Positions 1-25,608 of a stretch of 64,000 nucleotides of DNA are shown here, piece after piece. The notes beneath the pieces were generated by a model that was not told the DNA's origin, searched no databases, and was given only the letters and a program-made list of their open reading frames with translations. The stretch lies in assembly GCA_021399435.1 (NCBI GenBank), contig JAJTUP010000020.1, forward strand, positions 62,001 through 126,000, given 5' to 3'. The stretch is from Diaporthe sp. PMI_573 (Eukaryota > Ascomycota > Sordariomycetes > Diaporthales > Diaporthaceae). Position 1 is the first letter of the stretch; every line of letters starts with the position of its first letter. A program made the translations under genes and the position numbers.

Positions 1-1966
1 AAACCCATATCGAATTACTACATCAACAGCAGTCATAACACTTACATCGGAGAGGGTGATCAGGTCAGCGGGTTCATCACGACGGAACAATATCGAAAGG
101 CGAGTTATATCCCCCCAAGACATGTAGGCAAGCCCACGCATAACATAGTGGACTAACACATAGGCGCATAGGTCATCAGGGGAGGATGCAGGTGTGTAGA
201 GATTGATGTCTGGAATTCCCCGCGCTGCAACGACCCCCCTCGCAGCCCCCGATTCCGGCCAGCGCAAAGTGAACATTGGTCATTGGACTCTTTTCTCTCG
301 TGGATGAAGAGCCAATTCGATGATCGAGCTGGTGCCGGGAAGAGGGAGCCCTCCCGGAAGCCGCTTGCACGATCGTGGGCGCTCTCCAACAAAGACTGGG
401 ACGAGAAGCTCGATCTCGAGCCGCGCGTCTGCCACTGCCTCCCGACCATAGCAGGTGACCTCAGCGCTCGCACCGGATTGGCATTCAGGCTCGTGTGTAG
501 AGCGATCAGGGACGTGGCTTTCGAACAGACCGACCTGCCGCTCATCATCAGCCTGGAAGATCACACCACCGGCGACCAGCACAAGGAGATGGTCAAAATT
601 ATGAGGGAGGAATGGGCAGGCCTCCTACTCGAGAATCCCCTACCGGGGTGTGATCCTGAGACACAACAACCTAGGGTCGCGGATCTCAAGAGGAAGATAC
701 TCATCAAGGGGAAGAAGAAGGCCCAGAAGTGTGCCCCCAGCAAGCTGTCCAACTCTTTTCCCTCTCAGAAAGCACTGCTCCGCAGGATGACCGCGAGGGA
801 GTACTACGGCGCACCTCCGGAAGAGCAGCAAATCAAGGAGGGAAAGATCGATTGCGCACTGAACAAGCTGGCCATATATACCTACAGCGCCGGGCCGTTC
901 AAATCTCTCAACTCGAAAGACTCCCTGAAGCCAGCCCACATTTTCAGCTTCAGCGAAGAAAAGCTGAAGGCGCTCCACAGGACCAAGCACAAGGATGTCT
1001 TCCAGCACAACAAGAATTACTTGGCACGGACGTTCCCTGCCAGCCTCCGCTCGGCTAATCCCAACTTCCCAACATTGTGCTGGCGCAAGGGCGTGCAGAT
1101 GGTCTCGCTGAACTGGCAACACTGGGACACGGCCATGCATCTCAACGACGCCATGTTCGATGGCACACACGGCTGGGTCCTAAAGCCACCTGGGTATCAG
1201 TCCGAATCGGCGGCCTCTTGCCAAGCACATGTCGCCGGGAAGAAGAAGCTCAGTCTGCGTGTCACCATCATGGCAGGACAGAACATCCCGATGCCGCGAG
1301 CTGGAACATTCGACGATTCAACTAGCAAGACGAGCCCTAGCGTCTCGTCCACAACGGTCAACGGCGACTCAGATGTGCGGGCCATTCCAGCCACGCCTGA
1401 GGTGCACGATAACGATTTTCACGATTTCCGGCCCAGGGTCAAGTGTTACTTGCACGTCGAGAGCAACAGCGAGAGAAATCAATTCATGAAACTGGGCGAA
1501 GATGAGATCTGCATGGAGACGAAGCCCGCAGAAACCCAACACCCCACCTGGCCAGAAGATGAATCGAAGCTGCAGTTCCCGGATGTCAGCCACGTTGTCG
1601 AGGAGCTGAGCTTTCTAAGGTATTTGACACATAACCCTTGCCTCGTTCATCGCAGGAATTACAAGCGCTCACACCTCTTCCAGATTCAGAGTCGAGCACA
1701 CTGGCTTCATCAGAGACCAGTGCACCTCATGGGCCTGCATACGACTCGACAGGTTGCAAGAAGGATACAGGCTCATCAATCTGAAGGATCTCGGGGGTGG
1801 CCTGACCGAGGGAATGCTACTCGTCAAGGTCGAAAAGACTGTTCTGGAGGAGCCAGGTAGGCAGTTGTCGCTGAGGGCCAAGACTTGGGACGCTTGCAAG
1901 AAAGGCAGTGAGGAAGTAACCCGTTTGGGTTCGCGGTGGTCATGCTTTGGTCAGGGAACAATGTGA
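1..1966 (+). CDS. Phosphoinositide-specific phospholipase C (5' truncated by window edge)
   Basis: Hydrolyses PtdIns(4,5)P2 to IP3 and diacylglycerol at membranes. Exons read as <1-99, 172-1619 and 1684-1966. The window opens inside the X domain: SSHNTY with the first catalytic His at 34-36, then GCRCVEIDVWN after the first join. A second His sits at 433-435, followed by Cys where the family normally has Gly. The X domain ends near IISLEDHTTG, the Y domain contains PNFPTLCWRKGVQMVSLNWQ, and a C2 domain follows (FRVEHTGFIRDQ to LLVKVEKT). Intron 1 (100-171) starts with GC rather than GT (AAG/GCGAGT) and ends CATAG; it is the only join I found that keeps the X-domain frame. Intron 2 (1620-1683) is GT-AG and restores FLRFRVEH. 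The N-terminus lies outside the window. A Ser-rich insert sits inside the C2 region. Confidence 0.9.
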
Positions 1967-7864: not shown

Positions 7865-8985
7865 ATGTCTTCCGCAGCCAGATTCCCCACCAGACATCTC
7901 GGAAGAGATGGGCCAGAGGTTGCAGCAATCGGCTTCGGGGTGATGGGCTTGGGCGGCATCAGCTATGGGTCCGCAGGGTAAGCAATCCTTGAGTCTCCAA
8001 AAATCGATGAGCTTTTGCACCTTTACCCTTTGCTGAAACTTTGGTGGCCTTTCTAACGTTTCCCAGCGCCGACGAGGAGCGTTTCTCCATTCTTGACCGG
8101 GCTTGGGAGCTCGGTTGCACGTTCTGGGATTCTTCTGATATTTACGGCGACAGCGAAGTGCTGATTGGTAAATGGTTCAAGATGCACCCCGAAAGGCGAA
8201 GCGACATCTTCTTGGCTACAAAATTCGCCATCAAGATATCTGCCGATGGTATTGGTATAGACAGTTCTCCGGATTACTGTCGACAGGCTTGCGAGCAGAG
8301 TCTACAAAAGCTGGGGATCGACTGCATCGACCTATACTACATACATCGGCTTGACGAGAAGACCCCCATCGAGAGAACAGTGCAGGAAATGGTCAAGCTG
8401 AAGAGCGAGGGCAAGATCAAGCATTTTGGCATCTCGGAGTGCAGCTCCACCTCTCTGCGCCGGGCCCATGCCGTGCACCCCATCTCGGCCGTGCAGGTTG
8501 AATACAACCCATGGGACCTGGCGATCGAGAATGAGGACGGCACAAACCTGCTTTCTACCTGCCGGGAGCTCGGCGTTGCCACTGTAGCCTATTCGCCGCT
8601 TGGGCGTGGTATCCTGACTGGGCAGGTCAGGTCCACGCAAGACTTCGCCCCGGATGACTTTCGCCGCATTCTTGAACGTTACAACGAGGAAAACTTCCCG
8701 AAGAATCTGGCGATTGTTGACAAGCTCGCGGAAATCGCAAAGACGAAGAACGCCACACCCGGCCAGCTTGCACTGGCGTGGTTGTTGAAGCAAGGTGACG
8801 ATATCATTCCTATCCCCGGAACGAAAAGGATCAAGTACTTGGAGGAAAACATTGGTGCAGCCCAAGTTCAAGTCACAGACGAGGAGGAGAGGGAAATTAG
8901 GCGCAAGGTAGACGAGGCTGGAGTCAGAGGAGCTCGGACTCCCCAGGGCCTTTTGAATGTCTTTGCAGACACGCCCTCTCTCTGA
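7865..8985 (+). CDS. Aldo/keto reductase (AKR13-like)
   Basis: NADPH-dependent carbonyl reductase with a TIM-barrel fold. Exons 7865-7977 and 8067-8985 give 343 aa, the usual family length. The 89-nt intron (7978-8066) has donor GG/GTAAGC, a branch-like TCTAACG and acceptor TTTCCCAG, and rebuilds SYGSAGADEERF. The catalytic tetrad is visible: Asp59 and Tyr64 in DSSDIYGDSE, Lys90 in LATKF and His131 in YYIHRLD. The C-terminal cofactor loop IPIPGTKR is present. The start is the ATG opening MSSAARFPTRHLG, whose TRHLGRDGPEVAAIGFG matches the usual N-terminal hairpin. It lies about 5 kb from the giant cyclase gene, so it could supply a ketone reduction there, but AKRs are common and this link is only inferred. 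Confidence 0.92.
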
Positions 8986-13877: not shown

Positions 13878-16800
13878 CTAGTTCTCTGCCACGCGAAAAA
13901 TCAAGGACCCTGGTAGCGTCTCCTGTGTCGCCCGGGCGATAGCGCGAAGCATGCGCATGTTTGCCTCTAGGGTTGTATCCGAGATGCCATGGATAGCAAC
14001 GCCTCGTCGGTCCGGAACCAAGATGACATGGAGACAGCCGGCCTGGGCTGCTTGATAACGTGAGTGGTTCCAGGTCTCGCCGTCGATGCACAGATCGGGG
14101 AATTCATATCGTTGACCTTGATCAAGGCCCCCGTATCGCAGAACTTGGACGGGCTCGGTGTGCTGCGAGTTGAGGCGAACGATGTCACCTACGGTATCCG
14201 GACTGGCCACACGTATGCCGGATAAGCCAAAGCTGGGCAGGTTGAACAACGACAGCGCCCGTTCCTTGTAGAAGGCGACGCGTGGATGCGAGACAAAGTT
14301 GATCCTTCTGTGGTAGGCGATGGAGGCAACAAAGATGGAGAGTGCGTTCATCGTGAGCATTGCCCTCGTGATAGATAGATGAGGCGTCGAATGCTGCACG
14401 GGAACTGTACTAGTAGCCTCGAGGAAGGATTCGTCGCTGGAGCCATCAGCCACGTGGGCCTCGGAGTTGACAATCTTCGGGGGGTTGACGGCGACGATAG
14501 CCTTGTCGCTCGCATGCGCACTTCTGACATCAACTTTTGGATTGAAGCCGTCGGCCTTGGCACCCAGAGCTTGTTCGATCAGCTGTATAACGAGGTTTTC
14601 CATTGCAGGCGTTCGTATGGCAGCGTCGACGTGGACGCTGAGACGGCTCGTATTGTTCAGGGCCACCGAGGAAGCCGTTGGCAGTAGGCTCCGGCCAACG
14701 TCATGGCGGGAGCGCACATACTCCTGATATATGCGATGCGTATCGTCCATACCAAGCAAGATAGCCAACGATAGAAACATCGGGATCGAATGGGGAACGC
14801 TGAACAGAGCGTTGATAGCACTGTGGCCCGGCACATTGACGGGAATAAACTCGGCATCGTCCCAGGTGTGCTTGCCCCTCGAGCGCAGGACGGCCTCACC
14901 GCACTCCGTATCAAGCACTTGCTGATAAGTGTCGGTCATCCAGACGAAGTGATTGCGGTAGTCTAGTCCGGCACCGTCGAAGAGCTCGCGCAGCGTATCC
15001 ATGAGCATCACAGTCTCGATGGTCGTGCCCGATTGGCTAATACCAATGCAGACGGTGGATTCAAGCCGAATAGTCGCCAAGAGAGCGCTGAGCGCTACTG
15101 GATCAAGCGTTTGCAAGACGTGGTAAGACTCTGAGGGTGCCAGCTCCTTCACGAGAGCCATCATGAAGCCCCAAGCACCGGTTCCAACCCAGATATAGTG
15201 CTTCTTGGCTCGTAGAGCACGCGTACGAAGGGCGGGCTGGACGGCTCTGCAGATGTTGTCCCAGGAAGGGGGGTTGACAAAGCCCAGAATGGGCCTGCCG
15301 CCTTCGAGAGCGAGGTCATCAACCTGGCTCGGTGGGAGGTTGGCTTGGGCCTCGAAATAGCGCCACGGAAGTTCCTCAGTAGGCTCGGGTCGAGGGTCAT
15401 CGCTCCCGGCGGACTTTGCGCTGCGAGTCATATCTATAACGACCCGCCCTACGTCTGACCCCATGCGTGCCATCATCTTGGGTACCTCGCTGAGAGAGAC
15501 GGTATGGGACACAATGCGCCCAAATGATAGCTTGTGCTCCTCAATCATCTTGGCCGACTCCATGACATGAGATTCTCGGCTTCCTCGATGCCCTGCCAGT
15601 TCCAGGGACTTCCCCTTGACACAAATTCGCTCCACTTTCCAGCCTGTGCGAATCGGCCATACAGGCACTTTGCTGTCACCAGCGTCGAGAACGTCGCTGG
15701 AAAGGAAACCCCCAAACAGGTAGACGCAACCGCCAGGGTTGGCGTAGTCGAGCGCCTCTTGAGCTACTGTCTTCGCCTGGCCCAGGGATACGCAGACCAC
15801 GACGACGTCGACGCCCTCGCCTTGGGAAACTCGCTGGATCTGCGCAGCCATATCGTCCGGTACGAAGGCGTGTTCTGGCTTCACGATGCCCTGCGCTATG
15901 GCAGAGTCGAGGCGTGCTCTGGACCTGTTGGCGAGAAAGACGTTGGCAGCGATGTCCGAATTGACAACCGCAAAGAGCTGGCCTAACGCCCCTGCACCGA
16001 CGATGAGTATGTTCTTTCCTGCCGCACGCTTCTTGATGCATTCTTGGGCGGCCAGCACGCACGACAACGGCTCGATGAGTGTATGAGTTACCGTAGGTGC
16101 CGGGGTGCTCAGAGGAAGCACCTGACGGCGATCGATGAACTCTTGGCCAAACTTGATGTACTCCTGAAAGAGCCCTTCACGGTTGTGGCCAATCTTCTCG
16201 TGGTCGTCCAGCGGGTTGTTCGGCAACAGGACAAAGCTGTCGCCGGGTAGCAGACCCCTAACCTGACTACCGACCTCGACGACCTGGCAGACTCCTTCAT
16301 GGCCGAGGACGGTAGGTTCCAAGCCCCTCTCCCCACGCAGGATTTGAAGATCAGTCGAACAGATGCCGGCGTAGAGGACCTTGGCGAGGACCTCAAGGGT
16401 GCCGCATCGAGCTAGGGGGCGAGATACGACGGCCAGTGACGGAGCGCCGATGGGCTTCTCAATGGCAAGGTACTGACCTTGCAGGTGCTGTATCAGGTTG
16501 CCCATGCCGACCAGCCCGTCATTGTCATCTGAGGGTCCAATCCGTACAAGACTGGTCAAGTCCGCGTCTGTCCAGCCGCTGAAAAACCCCGTGGTGTGCA
16601 GGAAGCGGCGTAGCTGCTGCTGAAGCGCTGGCAGGTACGCACCTTTAGCCGTCTTCGTCACGAACCCGCCCGTGATTATGAACTTCTCCAGGCCGAGGTC
16701 CGCCGAAAGCTGCAGGATACGTAGCGCCAGAGGATACACGACCTCGCCGAGGACACGAACGGCGAGTGGGTGTCGCGAGGCGATGCCGCGACGCAGCCAC

Positions 16801-19800
16801 TCGTCCGTGACATCTGCCGCGTCGACGCCAAACTTGCTCGCCAGTCTCCGCGCTTGGCGCAGGGTACCGCGGCCCGAGCTATAGGAGCACAGGTCGGCGA
16901 GGTTTCCGCAAGGGCATACCGGAACATCGGCCTCGTCGGCGATCCTGAGGGAGAACGCATCGCCTTGTTTGGCCGCGGTTGCGAGCTGCTGCGCGTCGAT
17001 GTTGTGCGCGTTGCCACCCGTCAGGGTAGCAAGCACGGATTGTGAAAACTCTTCTGGGTACATGAGCGCCTGAGACATCGCCATGCGTACCATGTTGTCG
17101 ACGGCCCGAGGCTCGACAAGGACGTGGCCCATTTCGCCACCCGTGCCATGAGCGCCGACGTCGAGCTTGTCGGGGGTGTCGAGCTGGAGATTGAAGACTT
17201 TGTTGCTGAGACCGGAGCTGACTGTGATGAGACAGAATCGTCCTTCGTCTTTGTATCTCCAAGCAGCGGCAGAGATGTCGTTCACTATTAGGATGCGCAG
17301 TCCAGGGAGGCGCTTCGAGAGCGCGAGCTGAATGTCGTAGCCTTTGGCGGCCTCGCCCCAGAAGATGCTGGCATCCCGAACAACGCCGTCGGAGACTACC
17401 GCGCCAAAAGAGATGCCGAGGTCGCGCAGAGAGAGCTCCGGATGAGAGCCCGCCATGTCTTCCGTCGCCTGGACAATGGTGTTGATGAGGCGATCCTGGA
17501 GCTCGGCGAGGGAGCTGTGTGGCGATGTGTGCTTACTCGGGCTGGGCACACATGATATGTCGATCAGTCCTTGCTGTGTCATGATTGCGGTGCGCATATA
17601 CGTCGAACCAATGTCGAGAACGAGGGCTGGTCTACCTCGAGGGCTGTATTTGTTGGCGACCGAGTCCCGATTGCCTTGGTCACGGCCGTTTCGAACCAAC
17701 GAGTCCCGGTGGCCGAGGCCACCTCTCGCGGTGCGTTTAAAGCCCTCTCGGAAGGGTACAAAGTCCCGGCCCAGCAACTTCCGAGCAAAGGCAACGTCCA
17801 GCCGGATTGGCGTCCGAGGTACACCGTCAAAAGCCTGAACCGGGTGAGCTCGGCCATCGGCGCGAGCTTCTTCGCCCGCCAGCCTCCAGACCTCCTCTAA
17901 GCTGACGTCTTCTCCCGATGCCGCATCGTAGACCCCCGCGAACGTGTAAGCTTTGAGCAGCAGCTCGCTGAGGTCATCCATGTAGATGAAGTCGCGAATC
18001 TCGGCCTCCTCCTTGCGACCGGGCACGGGATTCACCGCCCTCGACACAAATCCACGGCGAAACCCAGGCCCGTAAACGCCCGAGATTCGCAACAGAGAGT
18101 GCCGGGGCAGTGAAGACAACAAGACTTCGCCGAGGCGCTTGGATATCTCATAAGTGTTGTGACCAGGCGGCAGCGGACGCGAGGCCAATAGCTTATGTGC
18201 CAGGCCGTCGAGCGTCTCGGTGTAGTCGGGCTCAGAAAGGAGCATGCCCTCGTGCGAGTGATAGAACTCGGCCGCGTGTTGGATCCACTCGTTCACAGCG
18301 GGGTCGTCCTCGAGCAGGTGGACTCGCTGAGACGAAGGGTAAACGACGGTGACGTCCCATTCCCGCCCCGCCTGCTTGATGACTGACGCTATGATTCCCT
18401 GGCCGAAGCCGTTAAGAGCGATGACCTGTGCGGCATCCTCGGGCTTCGTGCTGAGGCTGACGATGGCTGCCATGTTGTAGAGAACGTCGACGTCTCGCAG
18501 CATAGCCTCGAGATTTGCCCTATCGAGGGGGTGGCCCGGCAAGACGCGCATCGCGGCGCTGGTCCGACGCTTCAGCAGCTGGAGAGATGATGTTCTTACA
18601 GATGCAGTTACTTCGACGCCCTTTTCGGCGAGATACTGTGCCAAGTTCGAACCAATGTCGCCTGAGGCGCCGATGACGGCGGCTCTGAGAGGAGAGGGGT
18701 GTGATGAAGCTGTGGAGACTGTCAATGACGACGATGATGACGACGGCGATGTTGATGGCGATGACGCCGACTCGATAGCTGGCGAGGTCGAAGACAATAG
18801 CTTGTTCGGAAGTCGCTGTCGTCCCTCCTCGGCCTTGTCGGGGTTCTGCAGCCTCTCGTTGCTCCAAGAAAATAGTAATAGCACCACATCCTCGAGCATC
18901 GTCTCGCTTATATCAGATATCTCGTCTATGAATCCACCCTTGCCGATCCCCTCGGGCACCGCGAGCCACAGCTTCCCATCCTTATGCTCGATGCCATCTG
19001 TCGATATCTTCTTCCAGACCGTACCGACATCGCAGTCGGTCGCGATTGGCAGCCCGAGACGAATCAGGCACTCCAGGGTCTGTTCCAGGTCGGACTCGGA
19101 GAACTTTCCCTTGAGATGGGCCAGAGATGATGAGATGGCCATCCCCATGCTCACGCATTCGCCGTGCGGAATCGTGAAGCCAGCCAGCGACTCGATGATG
19201 TGGCCAAATTCGTGCCCAAAGTCGACTATCCGAATGAGCGAGTCCTCCCGCAGATTGGGCTGCAGCTCCTCCAGCATCGTCCGTATCGATATGTAGATGA
19301 CTTCATCCGTGTACTCATTGATGGCGAGATCTGTCTGATGCTCACGAATCACGTCGAACAGCCTTCGGCTCTTGACCAGAGCCATCTTGATAGCCTCGGC
19401 CAGCCCGCAGGCATACTCGCGGGGCGGTAGCGTCGGAAGAAACGTCCTCGCGTCGTTGAGACATGCTACGGGGGCATAGTAACCTCCGATGAAGTTCTTG
19501 TGGGAGCCAAAGTTGACGCCCACCTTGACGCCCACCCCGGCGTCGATCATGCCCACGAGCGTCGTGGGGATGCGCAGATACGGCGTGCCTCCCTTGTACA
19601 GCTGTGCTGCAAACCCGACGACGTCCATGATGGTGCCGCCACCGATGGCAACGAACAAGTCACGACGAGTCAGGCCAAAGTCGAGCGCGCAATCCACCAC
19701 CTTCATTGTGCTCGTCGTGTCTTTCCCAATACTGGAGACGTGCATGGCCAGAAGACGGAAGTCGGCTCGCCCATGGAAATAGCTGCGGACCAGGTCGGTC

Positions 19801-21236
19801 ACACGGCTTCCCAGATGGGCATCTACCACAGCCAGGACCCTCTTGCCGGAGCAATAGCCGTGGAGTGTTGGATTGCTGAAGTGGAAGAGATCCGGCACCG
19901 ACGCAACGTGGTATCGCACCGTGAGGGGCGACTGGGAGACCAGCTCATCGGCAGGGGCATCAGTGCCGTTCTCCCTCCGGTTCAGGTCGATGCCCTCCAC
20001 CTTACAGTGCTTCTCGATTGCCGAGCCTGCGGCGCAGAGGTCCGTCGAACTGAAGCTCTTGGCTAGGTCGAGGTCAACACGTTTTCCAAGGAAGGTTCCG
20101 ACAACTGCTTCGCCATGCTCTCCGACGAACCGGGTCATGCATTCCCAGAGCCGCTCAGAATCTAGCTCATCATCATACACGGGCAGGCTGGCATGCTTGA
20201 AGAGCTTCAGAACACGCTCAAGTTCGGCGGCTGTCACCCTGTCGCGCAGGAACAGGAGAGAGCAGGTGACAGCTGTGCCGATAGCTGTCGATTCCGCATG
20301 GTCATAGTAGCCCGCAGCCTCCTTCACGCTGGCTACAGCAGCCTCGACGCCCAGCGTCGAGCCTGAGCCCCGCTGCGTGTTCGCCAGCGAGGAGCACGCT
20401 TCCCAGGCGGCCGAGACGAGAAATGATGCTGCAGTCTCGTCGGTGGCGGAAGCGAACTGTCCGACAAGCGTCTCGACATGGTCCAGAAGCTCACCGCCCT
20501 GAACGGCGGCAATGCTGACGACTTCGGCCAGCCCCTTGCGGATATCCGCCTTGTCCAAGGAGTCGGCGATGAAGCTTGGGTCGCAAAGGCTAGCGATGGG
20601 GGGGTGAGACAAGGCGAAGAGGTCTTCGCAGATGTTGGTCGGCTCTTGATAAGGATGATGATTTATGCTGACCTTGTCGAGGCAGGAGGAGCAGTGGATC
20701 AGGCCTGTTAGATCCGTTGGTATCAAAATCCATGGCGTCGATCGCCGATAGATGCCCGCAGCGAACCCAACAACGTCGAGGCTGTCCTTGTCTCCGATCG
20801 CCACAAACAAATCCCTGCGACGAAGGGCGAGGTGCTCAGCGGCCGCCACGACCTTGTATACTTGGGTAATATCTTTGTGGGTGGGTGAGTCGATGGAAAG
20901 TCGCAAGATATGATGGTCCTCGAGGAGGCCTCGTTCTCTACACCGGTTAAAGTACTCATCAATCTTGTCCTGCTGCGCTCGAGGCAACCGATCGCTCACG
21001 ACTACACAAGCTTTGCGCTTTGCCAAGTCCGGGCCTCGACTAAAGTAGCTGGCGAGGCGAGAGGGCGGTTTGGTCTGGTCTCCCAAGTCGAACAGTCCGT
21101 CAACTCTCGCCGTCGGGACGCGGACATGGAGCTCGCTGATGAGCTCTGAGCCAGAGTTCCCGTGCCGGTCGACCCAGTCGTGGACACCTGGAGTGGGAGG
21201 GACTTCGGATGACGTACCCATCTTTGGTCGGTACAC
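13878..21236 (-). CDS. Six-domain cyclitol-type megaenzyme: tandem sugar phosphate cyclase, SDR, ROK kinase, MDR dehydrogenase, PGI/SIS-like
   Basis: One 2452-codon frame without introns. Domains, approximate residues: degenerate cyclase 25-400; cyclase 440-810 with GGGT at 532-535 and metal ligands Glu614, His675 and His691 (His679 also kept), the spacing of dehydroquinate synthase; Ser-rich linker 812-845; extended SDR 850-1160 with GASGDIG (Gly856) and Tyr1029/Lys1033; ROK kinase 1203-1585 with DIGST (Asp1208), catalytic Asp1320 in VNDIS and CPCG at 1441-1444; zinc-type MDR 1590-1938 with Cys1626, His1646, Glu1647 and Glu1722; PGI/SIS-like 1960-2452 with SQSGTT at 2067-2072. Sugar phosphate cyclases convert heptulose phosphates to cyclitols or dehydroquinate. 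PTTLVGMIDAGVGVKVGVN and MLEELQPNL look closer to valiolone-synthase-type enzymes than to AROM, whose partner domains are absent. Combined with kinase, epimerase and dehydrogenase, a C7-cyclitol route is the best inference. The true start may be Met6 (21221). Confidence 0.9.
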   Translation of the reverse strand: MYRPKMGTSSEVPPTPGVHDWVDRHGNSGSELISELHVRVPTARVDGLFDLGDQTKPPSRLASYFSRGPDLAKRKACVVVSDRLPRAQQDKIDEYFNRCRERGLLEDHHILRLSIDSPTHKDITQVYKVVAAAEHLALRRRDLFVAIGDKDSLDVVGFAAGIYRRSTPWILIPTDLTGLIHCSSCLDKVSINHHPYQEPTNICEDLFALSHPPIASLCDPSFIADSLDKADIRKGLAEVVSIAAVQGGELLDHVETLVGQFASATDETAASFLVSAAWEACSSLANTQRGSGSTLGVEAAVASVKEAAGYYDHAESTAIGTAVTCSLLFLRDRVTAAELERVLKLFKHASLPVYDDELDSERLWECMTRFVGEHGEAVVGTFLGKRVDLDLAKSFSSTDLCAAGSAIEKHCKVEGIDLNRRENGTDAPADELVSQSPLTVRYHVASVPDLFHFSNPTLHGYCSGKRVLAVVDAHLGSRVTDLVRSYFHGRADFRLLAMHVSSIGKDTTSTMKVVDCALDFGLTRRDLFVAIGGGTIMDVVGFAAQLYKGGTPYLRIPTTLVGMIDAGVGVKVGVNFGSHKNFIGGYYAPVACLNDARTFLPTLPPREYACGLAEAIKMALVKSRRLFDVIREHQTDLAINEYTDEVIYISIRTMLEELQPNLREDSLIRIVDFGHEFGHIIESLAGFTIPHGECVSMGMAISSSLAHLKGKFSESDLEQTLECLIRLGLPIATDCDVGTVWKKISTDGIEHKDGKLWLAVPEGIGKGGFIDEISDISETMLEDVVLLLFSWSNERLQNPDKAEEGRQRLPNKLLSSTSPAIESASSPSTSPSSSSSSLTVSTASSHPSPLRAAVIGASGDIGSNLAQYLAEKGVEVTASVRTSSLQLLKRRTSAAMRVLPGHPLDRANLEAMLRDVDVLYNMAAIVSLSTKPEDAAQVIALNGFGQGIIASVIKQAGREWDVTVVYPSSQRVHLLEDDPAVNEWIQHAAEFYHSHEGMLLSEPDYTETLDGLAHKLLASRPLPPGHNTYEISKRLGEVLLSSLPRHSLLRISGVYGPGFRRGFVSRAVNPVPGRKEEAEIRDFIYMDDLSELLLKAYTFAGVYDAASGEDVSLEEVWRLAGEEARADGRAHPVQAFDGVPRTPIRLDVAFARKLLGRDFVPFREGFKRTARGGLGHRDSLVRNGRDQGNRDSVANKYSPRGRPALVLDIGSTYMRTAIMTQQGLIDISCVPSPSKHTSPHSSLAELQDRLINTIVQATEDMAGSHPELSLRDLGISFGAVVSDGVVRDASIFWGEAAKGYDIQLALSKRLPGLRILIVNDISAAAWRYKDEGRFCLITVSSGLSNKVFNLQLDTPDKLDVGAHGTGGEMGHVLVEPRAVDNMVRMAMSQALMYPEEFSQSVLATLTGGNAHNIDAQQLATAAKQGDAFSLRIADEADVPVCPCGNLADLCSYSSGRGTLRQARRLASKFGVDAADVTDEWLRRGIASRHPLAVRVLGEVVYPLALRILQLSADLGLEKFIITGGFVTKTAKGAYLPALQQQLRRFLHTTGFFSGWTDADLTSLVRIGPSDDNDGLVGMGNLIQHLQGQYLAIEKPIGAPSLAVVSRPLARCGTLEVLAKVLYAGICSTDLQILRGERGLEPTVLGHEGVCQVVEVGSQVRGLLPGDSFVLLPNNPLDDHEKIGHNREGLFQEYIKFGQEFIDRRQVLPLSTPAPTVTHTLIEPLSCVLAAQECIKKRAAGKNILIVGAGALGQLFAVVNSDIAANVFLANRSRARLDSAIAQGIVKPEHAFVPDDMAAQIQRVSQGEGVDVVVVCVSLGQAKTVAQEALDYANPGGCVYLFGGFLSSDVLDAGDSKVPVWPIRTGWKVERICVKGKSLELAGHRGSRESHVMESAKMIEEHKLSFGRIVSHTVSLSEVPKMMARMGSDVGRVVIDMTRSAKSAGSDDPRPEPTEELPWRYFEAQANLPPSQVDDLALEGGRPILGFVNPPSWDNICRAVQPALRTRALRAKKHYIWVGTGAWGFMMALVKELAPSESYHVLQTLDPVALSALLATIRLESTVCIGISQSGTTIETVMLMDTLRELFDGAGLDYRNHFVWMTDTYQQVLDTECGEAVLRSRGKHTWDDAEFIPVNVPGHSAINALFSVPHSIPMFLSLAILLGMDDTHRIYQEYVRSRHDVGRSLLPTASSVALNNTSRLSVHVDAAIRTPAMENLVIQLIEQALGAKADGFNPKVDVRSAHASDKAIVAVNPPKIVNSEAHVADGSSDESFLEATSTVPVQHSTPHLSITRAMLTMNALSIFVASIAYHRRINFVSHPRVAFYKERALSLFNLPSFGLSGIRVASPDTVGDIVRLNSQHTEPVQVLRYGGLDQGQRYEFPDLCIDGETWNHSRYQAAQAGCLHVILVPDRRGVAIHGISDTTLEANMRMLRAIARATQETLPGSLIFRVAEN

Positions 21237-22148: not shown

Positions 22149-22959
22149 ATGAATCCTGTATCCACCTCGGAGGCAGTGACCTGCCGCGGTCTTCTACTAG
22201 ACCTTGACGGCACGCTCATCGACTCCACCGCTGCTGTCGGACGGTTCTGGAGCTCGTGAGTTGACGAATCGGTCCCTGAACTTGGCAAATCTTAACCATG
22301 AGTAGCATCGCTGAAGAGCTGAACATGGATCCCGAGTTGATCCTCGCAACCTGCCATGGGAGGAGGACCATAGACACACTGCGCATGCTGTGTCCAGAGA
22401 AGGCCAGCTGGGAATGTAAGTACTAGAGGGGGGCAGTGAGAGTGTCTTGCGTAACGGGAGACTCACGCCTACAGATGTGCGGGAAATCGAGAGTAGGATT
22501 CCTACAATCCATGGCAAGGGTGCTACCACTATCAACGGGGCCGAAACCTTTCTCCGGGGGGTCATTGGGTCAGAGACACCCTGGGCCATTGTAACTTCAG
22601 GTTCGAAGCCTCTGGCTCAGGGCTGGCTCGACGCGCTCGGGTTGCCCCATCCGTCTCAGCTGATAACTGCTGAGTCTGTCGAGAACGGAAAGCCGGATCC
22701 TGCTTGCTATATATTGGGCTTGCAGGCGATCGGTTCTAGCAGGGCCGACGATGTCATCGTTCTGGAAGATAGCCCGGCCGGTATATTGGCTGCCAAGGCC
22801 GCCGGATGCCGAGTTATCGGGCTTGTCACGAGCCATTCGTTGGAGCAGGTGTTGAATGCAAAGCCTGACTGGGTCGTCCGAGATCTTGGCTCCGTTGACC
22901 TTGTCGGCTCTACCGATGGAAACCTTAGGCTGCAGATCTCCAGGTCACCGCTTATCTAG
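22149..22959 (+). CDS. HAD-superfamily sugar phosphate phosphatase
   Basis: Exons 22149-22255, 22306-22415 and 22475-22959 give 233 aa. Motif I is LLLDLDGTLIDS with nucleophile Asp18 and Asp20; motif II is IVTSGSK; the motif III Lys is in ENGKPDP; motif IV is VLEDSPAGILAA. The alpha-helical cap is typical of the DOG1/GPP group (2-deoxyglucose-6-phosphate or glycerol-1-phosphate phosphatases), which act on small sugar or polyol phosphates. Introns are 50 and 59 nt; the first ends GAGTAG, two possible in-frame acceptors that differ by one Ser. It is divergent from the megaenzyme gene and could remove the phosphate from a cyclitol phosphate; that role is inferred. The frame ends normally at 22959. 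Confidence 0.9.
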
Positions 22960-23784: not shown

Positions 23785-25608
23785 CTAGTCCCTGTGAGCT
23801 GGTGTCACCTCCACAGCTGTGACGGTAGCTACTGGCTGGAGCTCTTCCGCCGCCGGCGACTCCCAACCCTCCCGCCTGTCCCTTGGAACCCTTACAAAGG
23901 TAAAATCAATAGCAAGTGCTACCAAGGCGATCCCAGCAGCAAAGTACAGAGCGGCACGGAAACCCGTTGCCTCATCTCTTGTCTTGGTGACCTCGCTCTC
24001 TATCGTCGCACCAATTCCCAAGCCCAGACTTGTTCCGTATAGATTGAGCGTGCCGATGAGGCTACTAGCTATGCCCTGCTGCTTGCGGTTCACGCTGCCG
24101 CTCGCGATGACTTGGGCCGCAACAAAGATGAGGTCGGGGCAGAATCCAGCGAGAAGGAAAGCAGGAAAGACCTGAGCCCAATATGTCTGCTGGACAGGCA
24201 TGGTAGCCAATAGGAGGCTGGTTGCAACCACCATGGCTATACCGATGGCCAAAATGAACTCGGCACGAACCCGTGAGATGAGCCAAGCTGCGAGAAATAC
24301 GGCGACGAGAGCAGTGCATCCAAATGGAATAAAGTATATGCCTGTTTGAAGCACAGAGATGGAGCGAAGCTGCTGCTGCCAGGCGACAGCATACCACAAG
24401 TCAATGCCGGCACCCATGTAGCTGAGCAGGAGAACCGAGATGAGCGCGGAAAATGTTGGAGCCTTGAAGATGTGCAAGGGCATGATGGGCTCCTCACATT
24501 TCTTCTCCCACGCAATGAAGCCGGCAAAGAGGATGACGGTGACGACTAAGCAGGCGATGACATACGGCGTTGACCAGCCAACTGCCGGAGCTTGGCTACT
24601 CGAACGTTAGTCGCGAGAATATGGCCAGCATTCGTTCGTCTCTTCCCTGTAGCCGAGGTGAACTTACTTGCAGACAATGTTTAGAAGTAGCAGGCTACTC
24701 AATCCAAGGACTGCACCGACATAATCGATCCGGCCACCTTTGTCGACGGGTATTTCGGGTATGGCTAGATACATCAGAAGTCCCATGATGACGCCTGTCA
24801 ACGAGGCACTGCCCGACATGTGAGAAGAGTCCGGCGGGAGAAGCTCATTTGGCGACACGACACGTACATTATGATAAACAACCACTTCCACCCCACGCCC
24901 TCGATGAAGGCACCGGCGAGAAGGCCGCCAAGAACACCGCCAATGGGAGGTGAAGCCGCGAAGAATCCCAAGAAGAGGTTGCGAGAGCGCCCAGGCGGTA
25001 CCATGATGGTGATCACGGACACAGCGTTAGGCAGAAAGAAGCCGCCTCCGACGCCGCTGAGGGCGCGAACGGCAACGAAGGCATCGTAGGACGTGCAGAA
25101 GGCGTTGGCCAGAGAGAAGGCGGCAAAGATGAGACATCCCAAGAGGACGAGGCGTTGATGGCCATAGATGGCGCCGAGTCGGCCAGTGACGAGTACGAAA
25201 GCGCCTTGGGTGAGCCTACAATTTTGCCCCTTCTTTTTTAGCGATGTCTGGGTTTCGAGTTACCGTTGGTTCGGAGGGGGAAAAAGGGGGGGGTTGTTAC
25301 GGATACGAGGCGGCCATCCAGTTCGTGTGGCCTGAGCCAACTTCCTTGCCCAACTCCTTCGTCAAGGCCAATCCACCAGCAAAGGTAACAAAATTGGAGA
25401 CGAATTGCACCGTGTTCGCACCTACCAACAACGAGGTGATTAAAAGTAGCCGAGGCTGGCTTGCTGGCGACGGGACAGCTTCGAAGATGCGCTGACTTTG
25501 CTGCGATGGGGTCTCGGCTGGTGGCTGCGAGCTTGAAGAGATGGATGGCTCCATCGAAGGAACGGCAGATTGTGCGGACAGGGCCATGCCGGCAAAGCTA
25601 TGGCGCAA
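23785..25608 (-). CDS. MFS transporter, DHA2 (14-TM) type
   Basis: Predicted drug/metabolite proton antiporter. Exons complement(25301-25608, 24868-25215, 24668-24808, 23785-24595) give 535 aa. Introns are 85, 59 and 71 nt with donors GTAAC, GTACGT and GTAAGT; every join keeps frame and rebuilds continuous helices (SYPLTQGAFVLVTGRLG, LFIIIASLTGVIMG, NIVCNQAPAVGWSTPY). The motif A region reads VLVTGRLGAIYGHQR and motif C-like PPIGGVLGGLLAG follows in helix 5. The N-terminus before the first helix is Ser/Pro/Gln-rich; Met1 at 25608 or Met8 could be the start. The last intron again ends GAGTAG. Placed next to the HAD and megaenzyme genes, it is a natural candidate exporter for their product; substrate is not readable from sequence. 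Confidence 0.9.

Follow-up and report, generated by a model that had tools for sequence, protein, structure and literature searches.

Organization of the locus

The window analyzed here, a stretch of 64,000 nucleotides from Diaporthe sp. PMI_573 (host assembly of 83.7 Mb in 217 contigs), contains an open frame of 2459 codons on its reverse strand that encodes a six-domain megaenzyme; the runner-up stop-to-stop frame in the window has 562 codons. A first-pass annotation had described a single uninterrupted six-domain frame at 13878-21236 (-), and this was confirmed. From the N- to the C-terminus, the protein comprises a pseudo-cyclase, a sugar-phosphate cyclase, an extended SDR, a ROK kinase, a zinc MDR, and a PGI-fold domain. 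The frame had been counted as 2452 aa from a GTG at 21236. While the frame itself holds, the start probably does not: the ATG at 21221 is the first of the frame, and its good context, together with an existing 2447-aa protein found in the relatives search that is 99% identical, makes it the likelier start. The megaenzyme CDS is thus placed at 13878..21221 (-), with 2447 aa from the ATG and no intron needed. Residue numbers below follow the 2452-aa frame.

Divergent from the megaenzyme and about 0.9 kb apart lies a HAD phosphatase gene (22149..22959, +). Our model has three exons (22149-22255, 22306-22415, and 22475-22959; 233 aa) with intron borders GTGAGT/TAG and GTAAGT/CAG, is one among several splice choices that stay open, and includes a DLDGT motif. 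HAD genes also adjoin cyclases in the bacterial loci L005 and L028, where the proteins are 35 and 37% identical to the window HAD. Its nearest kin, however, is a paralogue on contig C1 of the same genome, with stretches of 46 and 56% identity, so that the link to the megaenzyme is one of position only. An MFS transporter gene (23788..25259, -), for which the Pfam-positive frames 23788-24606 and 24801-25259 were taken as exons, possibly encodes an exporter, again linked to the megaenzyme by position only.

Further genes in the window include an aldo/keto reductase in one open frame at 8011-8982 (+), about 5 kb from the megaenzyme, and a gene with PI-PLC X/Y domains at 172-1857 (+). Elsewhere in the host genome, a third sugar-phosphate cyclase gene (L003, G000:C141:1583235) is broken by likely introns. 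Its VVGGGLVTDVAG loop resembles that of DDGS, and it is possibly a mycosporine gene.

A fungal protein family

Of 7977 candidates scored in the relatives search, 54 proteins emerged as relatives. According to BLAST mapping, 31 of the 54 contain all six domains in the window order, the SDR alone goes undetected in 12, and 11 are shorter or cut. Named relatives come from Diaporthe, Geoglossum, Stictis, Cadophora, Monosporascus, Seiridium, Pestalotiopsis, Fusarium, Xylariaceae, Chlorociboria, Microdochium, Cladorrhinum, Apiospora, and Arthrobotrys, in addition to one bacterial protein, P0054. Where database names are given, most read '3-dehydroquinate synthase' or hypothetical. The first-pass annotation knew of no described protein with this domain order. 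In the sense of a protein unique to this genome the statement fails, as the family extends across many fungi under these labels; among the open-licence titles and abstract starts listed in a literature search, a scope outside which many papers of the field lie, none deals with this fusion.

Conservation was assessed in an alignment of 38 rows, in which 37 of the 54 relatives, the near-identical P0001 included, join the query. It bears on the reading that the megaenzyme is a decaying relic, or an artefact of a gene model that fuses neighbors, which we regard as highly unlikely. One of the two cyclase domains is indeed degenerate, and the corresponding parts in Podospora didyma are annotated as two proteins, P0059 and P0175, whose contigs are equally long. 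Against this stand a single stop-free frame with a GC content of 0.63/0.44/0.69 at codon positions 1/2/3, motifs that are intact in 38/38 rows, and a best named relative, from Diaporthe helianthi, that is 80% identical over 99% of the protein.

In some relatives, the ROK kinase is preceded by an additional domain of roughly 170 residues. In P0005, P0006, P0012, P0019, P0036, and P0052 this domain includes the motif HEGYH (HEGY[HA] matched in 6/54 relatives), and P0004 has the same domain with QEGYH. HEGYH looks like the zinc-hydrolase HExxH motif at the sequence level. The window protein has a short linker in place of this domain. Furthermore, residues 819-1065 of the Geoglossum megaenzyme P0012 are homologous to residues 1-200 of P0054 (24% identity, E 1e-14), and the WHxT and SITLG-type motifs of this common domain resemble, by eye, those of 2H/LigT phosphoesterases.

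A degenerate and an intact cyclase domain

The first cyclase-like domain (20037..21074, -; residues 55-400) has GDK in place of the GGG loop, and Ser stands where its AExxK motif should have Lys. Across the 38 rows, the position of the catalytic Lys is Lys in 16, Arg in 7, and Ser in the query, while the Glu of AExxK is kept in 31. At a metal-ligand site the query has His, and 21 of the 38 rows have Asp. In some relatives, the domain matches over merely about 120-180 residues. Without the GGG loop and the AExxK Lys, the first domain of the window protein counts as a pseudo-domain, and activity of both cyclase domains was rejected for this protein.

The second cyclase domain (18837..19928, -; residues 437-800) has ValA/EEVS (4p53) as its best solved relative and contains the active-site motif DFGHEFGH (19200..19223, -; residues 672-679). 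K571, E614, K617, R669, D672, H675, H679, H691, and K752 are found in 38/38 rows and H751 in 36/38; their roles we presume by analogy with DHQS and ValA. Of the two cyclase-like domains originally proposed, it is the second that is the predicted enzyme, and the first that is a pseudo-domain. Against solved structures, the second domain gave E-values of 6e-62 for ValA 4p53, 1e-45 for DDGS 5tpr, 5.2e-40 for the best DHQS (3qbd), 2.5e-32 for the best AROM (7u5s), and 1.1e-24 for DOIS 2d2x. The cyclase model superposes on ValA with a TM-score of 0.94 (by target length) and an RMSD of 1.5. In the alignment to ValA, D672 and H751 match the valiolone-synthase Asp and His, whereas H679 is DHQS-like at a site where ValA has Pro. 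As read from these residues, the active site is a hybrid of a valiolone-synthase Asp and His with a DHQS-like His.

The pairing of a dead and a live cyclase is also found in bacteria. In particular, the Scytonema protein P0063 can be aligned to 98% of the pair, with an identity of 32%; further proteins of the tandem clade, with 536-764 aa, come from Nostoc, Micromonospora, Phytohabitans, and Amycolatopsis, with a shortened first half in some. The N-terminal halves of the seven bacterial tandem proteins tested are weakly similar to the fungal pseudo-domain, roughly as much as to the second cyclase.

Phylogenetic placement of the cyclase

The cyclase tree comprises 69 rows, with EVS, EboD, DOIS, and aminoDHQS left out. 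The fungal cyclases (100/99) form one clade (99/98) with 21 of the 23 rows labeled as bacterial tandem. EEVS, DDGS, and P0174 make up a clade (99/97) beside it that does not contain the query, and the join of the EEVS side with cyclases of Acidobacteria/Eremiobacterota is weaker (91/73). Two labels entered as tandem, P0171 and P0174, were not borne out, and neither was that of L044, which had been put in as EEVS but falls with DDGS. The motif following the metal-binding GH was compared in the best 120 of 164 cyclases; it is of the EEVS type (SP) in 64 and of the tandem type (GH/AH) in 52, with no match in 4. The query, with GHEFGH, has the GH form.

The first-pass annotation had named valiolone synthase as a member of the same superfamily. 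In the 69-row tree, the query lies on the sedoheptulose 7-phosphate cyclase side, but we do not count the cyclase as an EEVS member, since it falls outside that clade. For this reason, and given the DHQS-like H679 where ValA has Pro, its product may differ from the EEVS product. The tandem clade could include 2-epi-valiolone synthase (EVS).

The tree also bears on the possibility that the label '3-dehydroquinate synthase' is correct and that the megaenzyme serves shikimate or quinate metabolism in the manner of AROM. Several relatives carry this name by automatic annotation, and the cyclase superfamily is common to both. The DHQS clade (100/100), however, consists of seven rows, the host AROM among them, and the query lies outside it; a placement inside AROM-type DHQS, which would have told against the first-pass reading, was thus not found. 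Pfam detected no EPSPS, shikimate kinase, or dehydroquinase in the megaenzyme, and Shikimate_DH reached 20.0 bits, below its cut-off of 24.3, on the Rossmann fold of the MDR. Moreover, the host has a separate AROM frame of 1579 codons. A shikimate function was rejected on the tree and the domain content, and its probability is close to nil.

Scarcely more credible is a maker of mycosporine- or gadusol-type sunscreens. Such routes likewise begin at sedoheptulose 7-phosphate, and one fungus is reported to have a cluster of an EEVS-like cyclase, an O-methyltransferase, and an ATP-grasp protein (PMC5103461). The megaenzyme gave no O-methyltransferase or ATP-grasp match, and neither did the 20 frames of the window that were scanned, out of 65 with at least 150 codons; the Ala and Thr positions of DDGS are Asp and His in the query cyclase. 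We disfavor this function, as the partner domains were not found within that scope.

Domains downstream of the cyclase

The extended SDR (17742..18704, -; residues 845-1165) is of the epimerase/dehydratase type, with GxxGxxG and YxxxK motifs. Its Pfam match scores 54.7 bits against a cut-off of 20.9, and, counting rows that have a residue at the position, Y1029 is present in 30/31 and K1033 in 31/31. No SDR counterpart was found at E 0.1 in the bacterial loci L022, L023, L005, L027, and L028. The ROK-family sugar kinase (16497..17645, -; residues 1198-1580; 33.7 bits, cut-off 22.9) contains D1320, H1371, C1441, C1443, and C1450 in 38/38 rows. We take D1320 to be the catalytic Asp and the His and Cys residues to be the zinc residues.

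The zinc MDR dehydrogenase (15357..16484, -; residues 1585-1960) matches ADH_N with 41.5 bits (cut-off 23.5) and ADH_zinc_N with 26.1 bits, below its cut-off of 31.8. C1626, H1646, and E1647, presumably the catalytic-zinc Cys and His-Glu, are found in 38/38 rows.

The C-terminal domain (13881..15284, -; residues 1985-2452) has both the PGI/SIS fold and the phosphate-loop motif SxSGxTxET. One of its columns is Gln in 37/38 rows (with one gap) and in the actinobacterial locus L022, while P0054 and P0176 have Glu there, which we take from the motif ESNGK to be the usual PGI base. If this is right, the Gln makes ordinary isomerase chemistry doubtful, and the sequence suggests that the PGI-fold domain may be without the usual base. 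The host genome has its own PGI; the hhalign alignment of the PGI-fold domain with it stops short of the catalytic part, as the cut piece ends before it.

Bacterial counterparts

Bacterial genomes were scanned with two kinase-only patterns, ND[VI]SAAAW and D[LI]GL[DE]KFI, and the hits were confirmed against P0054, a protein that is itself without a cyclase. Nine loci were found, and in seven of them (L005, L007, L009, L010, L011, L012, and L013, with L009 and L010 near-identical) a cyclase lies directly upstream of the ROK gene, while L006 and L008 have no cyclase gene. L005 alone among these cyclases belongs to the tandem clade; those of L007, L009, L011, L012, and L013 form a different clade.

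In the actinobacterial genome of L005 (G001), the tandem cyclase and the ROK kinase run off a contig end (C26), and another contig end (C119; locus L022) includes the terminal part of an MDR gene together with the gene for a 482-aa PGI-like protein. The two contig ends are putatively parts of a single operon. Further genes of L022, assigned by reading and not by family search, encode a cytidylyltransferase, an SDR, a DegT aminotransferase, a glycosyltransferase, a VOC protein, and a glycosidase. By its gene content, L022 80-8592 is a candidate aminocyclitol pseudo-oligosaccharide cluster around the MDR-PGI pair. A search for the PGI gene found G001 alone (1/148 genomes), as did a search for its tandem cyclase within its order (1/149); within its class, the latter found 3/60 at 1e-50, the two others being EEVS-clade cyclases. 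A search with P0097 gave 0/149 genomes and, having no positive control, is uninformative. In plasmids, the queries P0063 and P0176 returned no record covering at least 80% of the query, and the matches listed were EEVS/DHQS and mostly phosphomutases.

A comparable set of genes lies in one row in G032: an EEVS-clade cyclase, an SDR, a HAD phosphatase, a ROK kinase, an MDR, and a sugar-isomerase-like gene, the SDR and the isomerase being assigned by reading. This row weighs against a reading in which the cyclase takes another substrate, such as glucose 6-phosphate, the substrate of 2-deoxy-scyllo-inosose synthase, or some unknown heptulose phosphate, and yields a different cyclitol. Such a reading would fit the hybrid active site, a clade that stands apart from all reference cyclases in the tree, and, partly as a matter of general knowledge, the fact that ROK and PGI folds commonly act on hexose phosphates. 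In addition to the same kinds of genes surrounding an EEVS-clade cyclase in G032, the match of Asp672 and His751 to ValA and the far weaker similarity to DOIS, which is absent from the tree, than to ValA argue for sedoheptulose 7-phosphate, and we consider another substrate unlikely.

Fusions are also found outside fungi. P0054, named as Candidatus Omnitrophota, is a fused ROK-MDR-PGI protein in the fungal order, with 46, 36, and 29% identity to the respective query domains; it sits on a 5.2-kb contig, and its source needs care for that reason. In P0176 (1021 aa), a phosphomannomutase is fused to the same PGI-like domain, a sequence arrangement that hints that the product might go to a mutase in some bacteria. 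P0171 and P0174 are fusions of a cyclase to a ROK kinase according to their Pfam lists; as their cyclases lie in other parts of the tree, cyclase-kinase fusion seems to have arisen more than once. Together, the bacterial neighborhoods and fusions suggest that the megaenzyme originated in bacteria and that its intermediates are phosphorylated and sugar-like. The chances appear even that ascomycetes carry an AROM-like pseudosugar megaenzyme acquired from bacteria, either as an operon or as a pre-fused gene.

A proposed cyclitol pathway on one polypeptide

Taken together, the megaenzyme probably turns sedoheptulose 7-phosphate into a phosphorylated C7-cyclitol, that is, a pseudosugar, as an AROM-like fusion. 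The proposal is based on the domain order, the conservation, the placement of the cyclase, the intact motifs, and the bacterial neighborhood parallels, from which every reaction is inferred. The first-pass annotation had likewise read the protein as an AROM-like fusion for a cyclitol or pseudosugar and not for shikimate, and the cyclase outside DHQS and the bacterial ROK-, MDR-, and PGI-like neighbors lend support to it.

Known cyclases of the sugar-phosphate cyclase superfamily are dimers, and the degenerate first cyclase would serve as the dimer partner of the second. The second cyclase would likely close sedoheptulose 7-phosphate with loss of the phosphate, giving a valiolone-type ketone. 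The ROK kinase would then likely re-phosphorylate the 7-hydroxymethyl group, by analogy with AcbM in acarbose synthesis. The PGI-fold domain likely binds the resulting mimic of hexose-6-phosphate and, in the slot of AcbO, likely catalyzes a shift or epimerization next to the ketone. Reduction or dehydration by the MDR and the SDR would likely lead to a valiolol- or valienol-type 7-phosphate. Finally, the divergent HAD phosphatase may free the cyclitol, with the MFS protein as its possible exporter. That cyclization must be followed at once by a kinase step is the logic of acarbose synthesis (AcbC, AcbM, AcbO, AcbL, and AcbN) and not that of AROM.

In its predicted function, the megaenzyme is a known pathway logic in a new architecture, with a cyclase clade of candidate function. 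C7-cyclitol pathways with separate bacterial enzymes lead to acarbose and validamycin. If the proposal is true, a pathway fusion of the AROM type arose for a second cyclase route, a family now often labeled '3-dehydroquinate synthase' is explained, and the family points to genes for fungal carbasugars. Fungi make carbasugars such as cyclophellitol, MK7607, and pericosines. Furthermore, the function of the clade of tandem live and dead cyclases becomes directly testable in bacteria and fungi.

Comparison with known systems

Among known systems, the acarbose and validamycin routes (AcbC/ValA) are alike in that the cyclase is followed by a 7-kinase and dehydrogenases; the acarbose steps run through AcbC, AcbM, AcbO, AcbL, and AcbN (PMC9200736). 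In Actinoplanes, genes resembling those of AcbC, AcbM, and AcbL are reported to form a putative operon (PMC3364876). These routes use separate bacterial proteins, whereas the megaenzyme is one polypeptide with a cyclase in the neighboring clade. Its PGI-fold domain stands at the slot expected for an AcbO-type epimerase, and is set beside AcbO by role and not by sequence comparison.

In the ebo operon, EboD likewise belongs to a tree-defined cyclase clade, is annotated as 3-dehydroquinate synthase, and is thought to use sedoheptulose 7-phosphate. In contrast, the partners given in the accessible part of that source are a prenyltransferase, a metal-dependent hydrolase, a xylose-isomerase-like TIM barrel, and a phosphoester hydrolase, with no ROK, MDR, or PGI named there (PMC5133447). 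The vertebrate gadusol route of EEVS and MT-Ox shares a eukaryotic sedoheptulose 7-phosphate cyclase with a suggested horizontal origin, but consists of two proteins, the partner being a methyltransferase-oxidoreductase; the sections of the paper available name no kinase or PGI (PMC4426668).

Lastly, the pentafunctional AROM protein of fungi is alike in being a large fungal fusion that starts with a cyclase of the DHQS superfamily. It differs in its other domains, none of which scores above cut-off in the megaenzyme, and in its cyclase, since that of the megaenzyme lies outside the DHQS clade.
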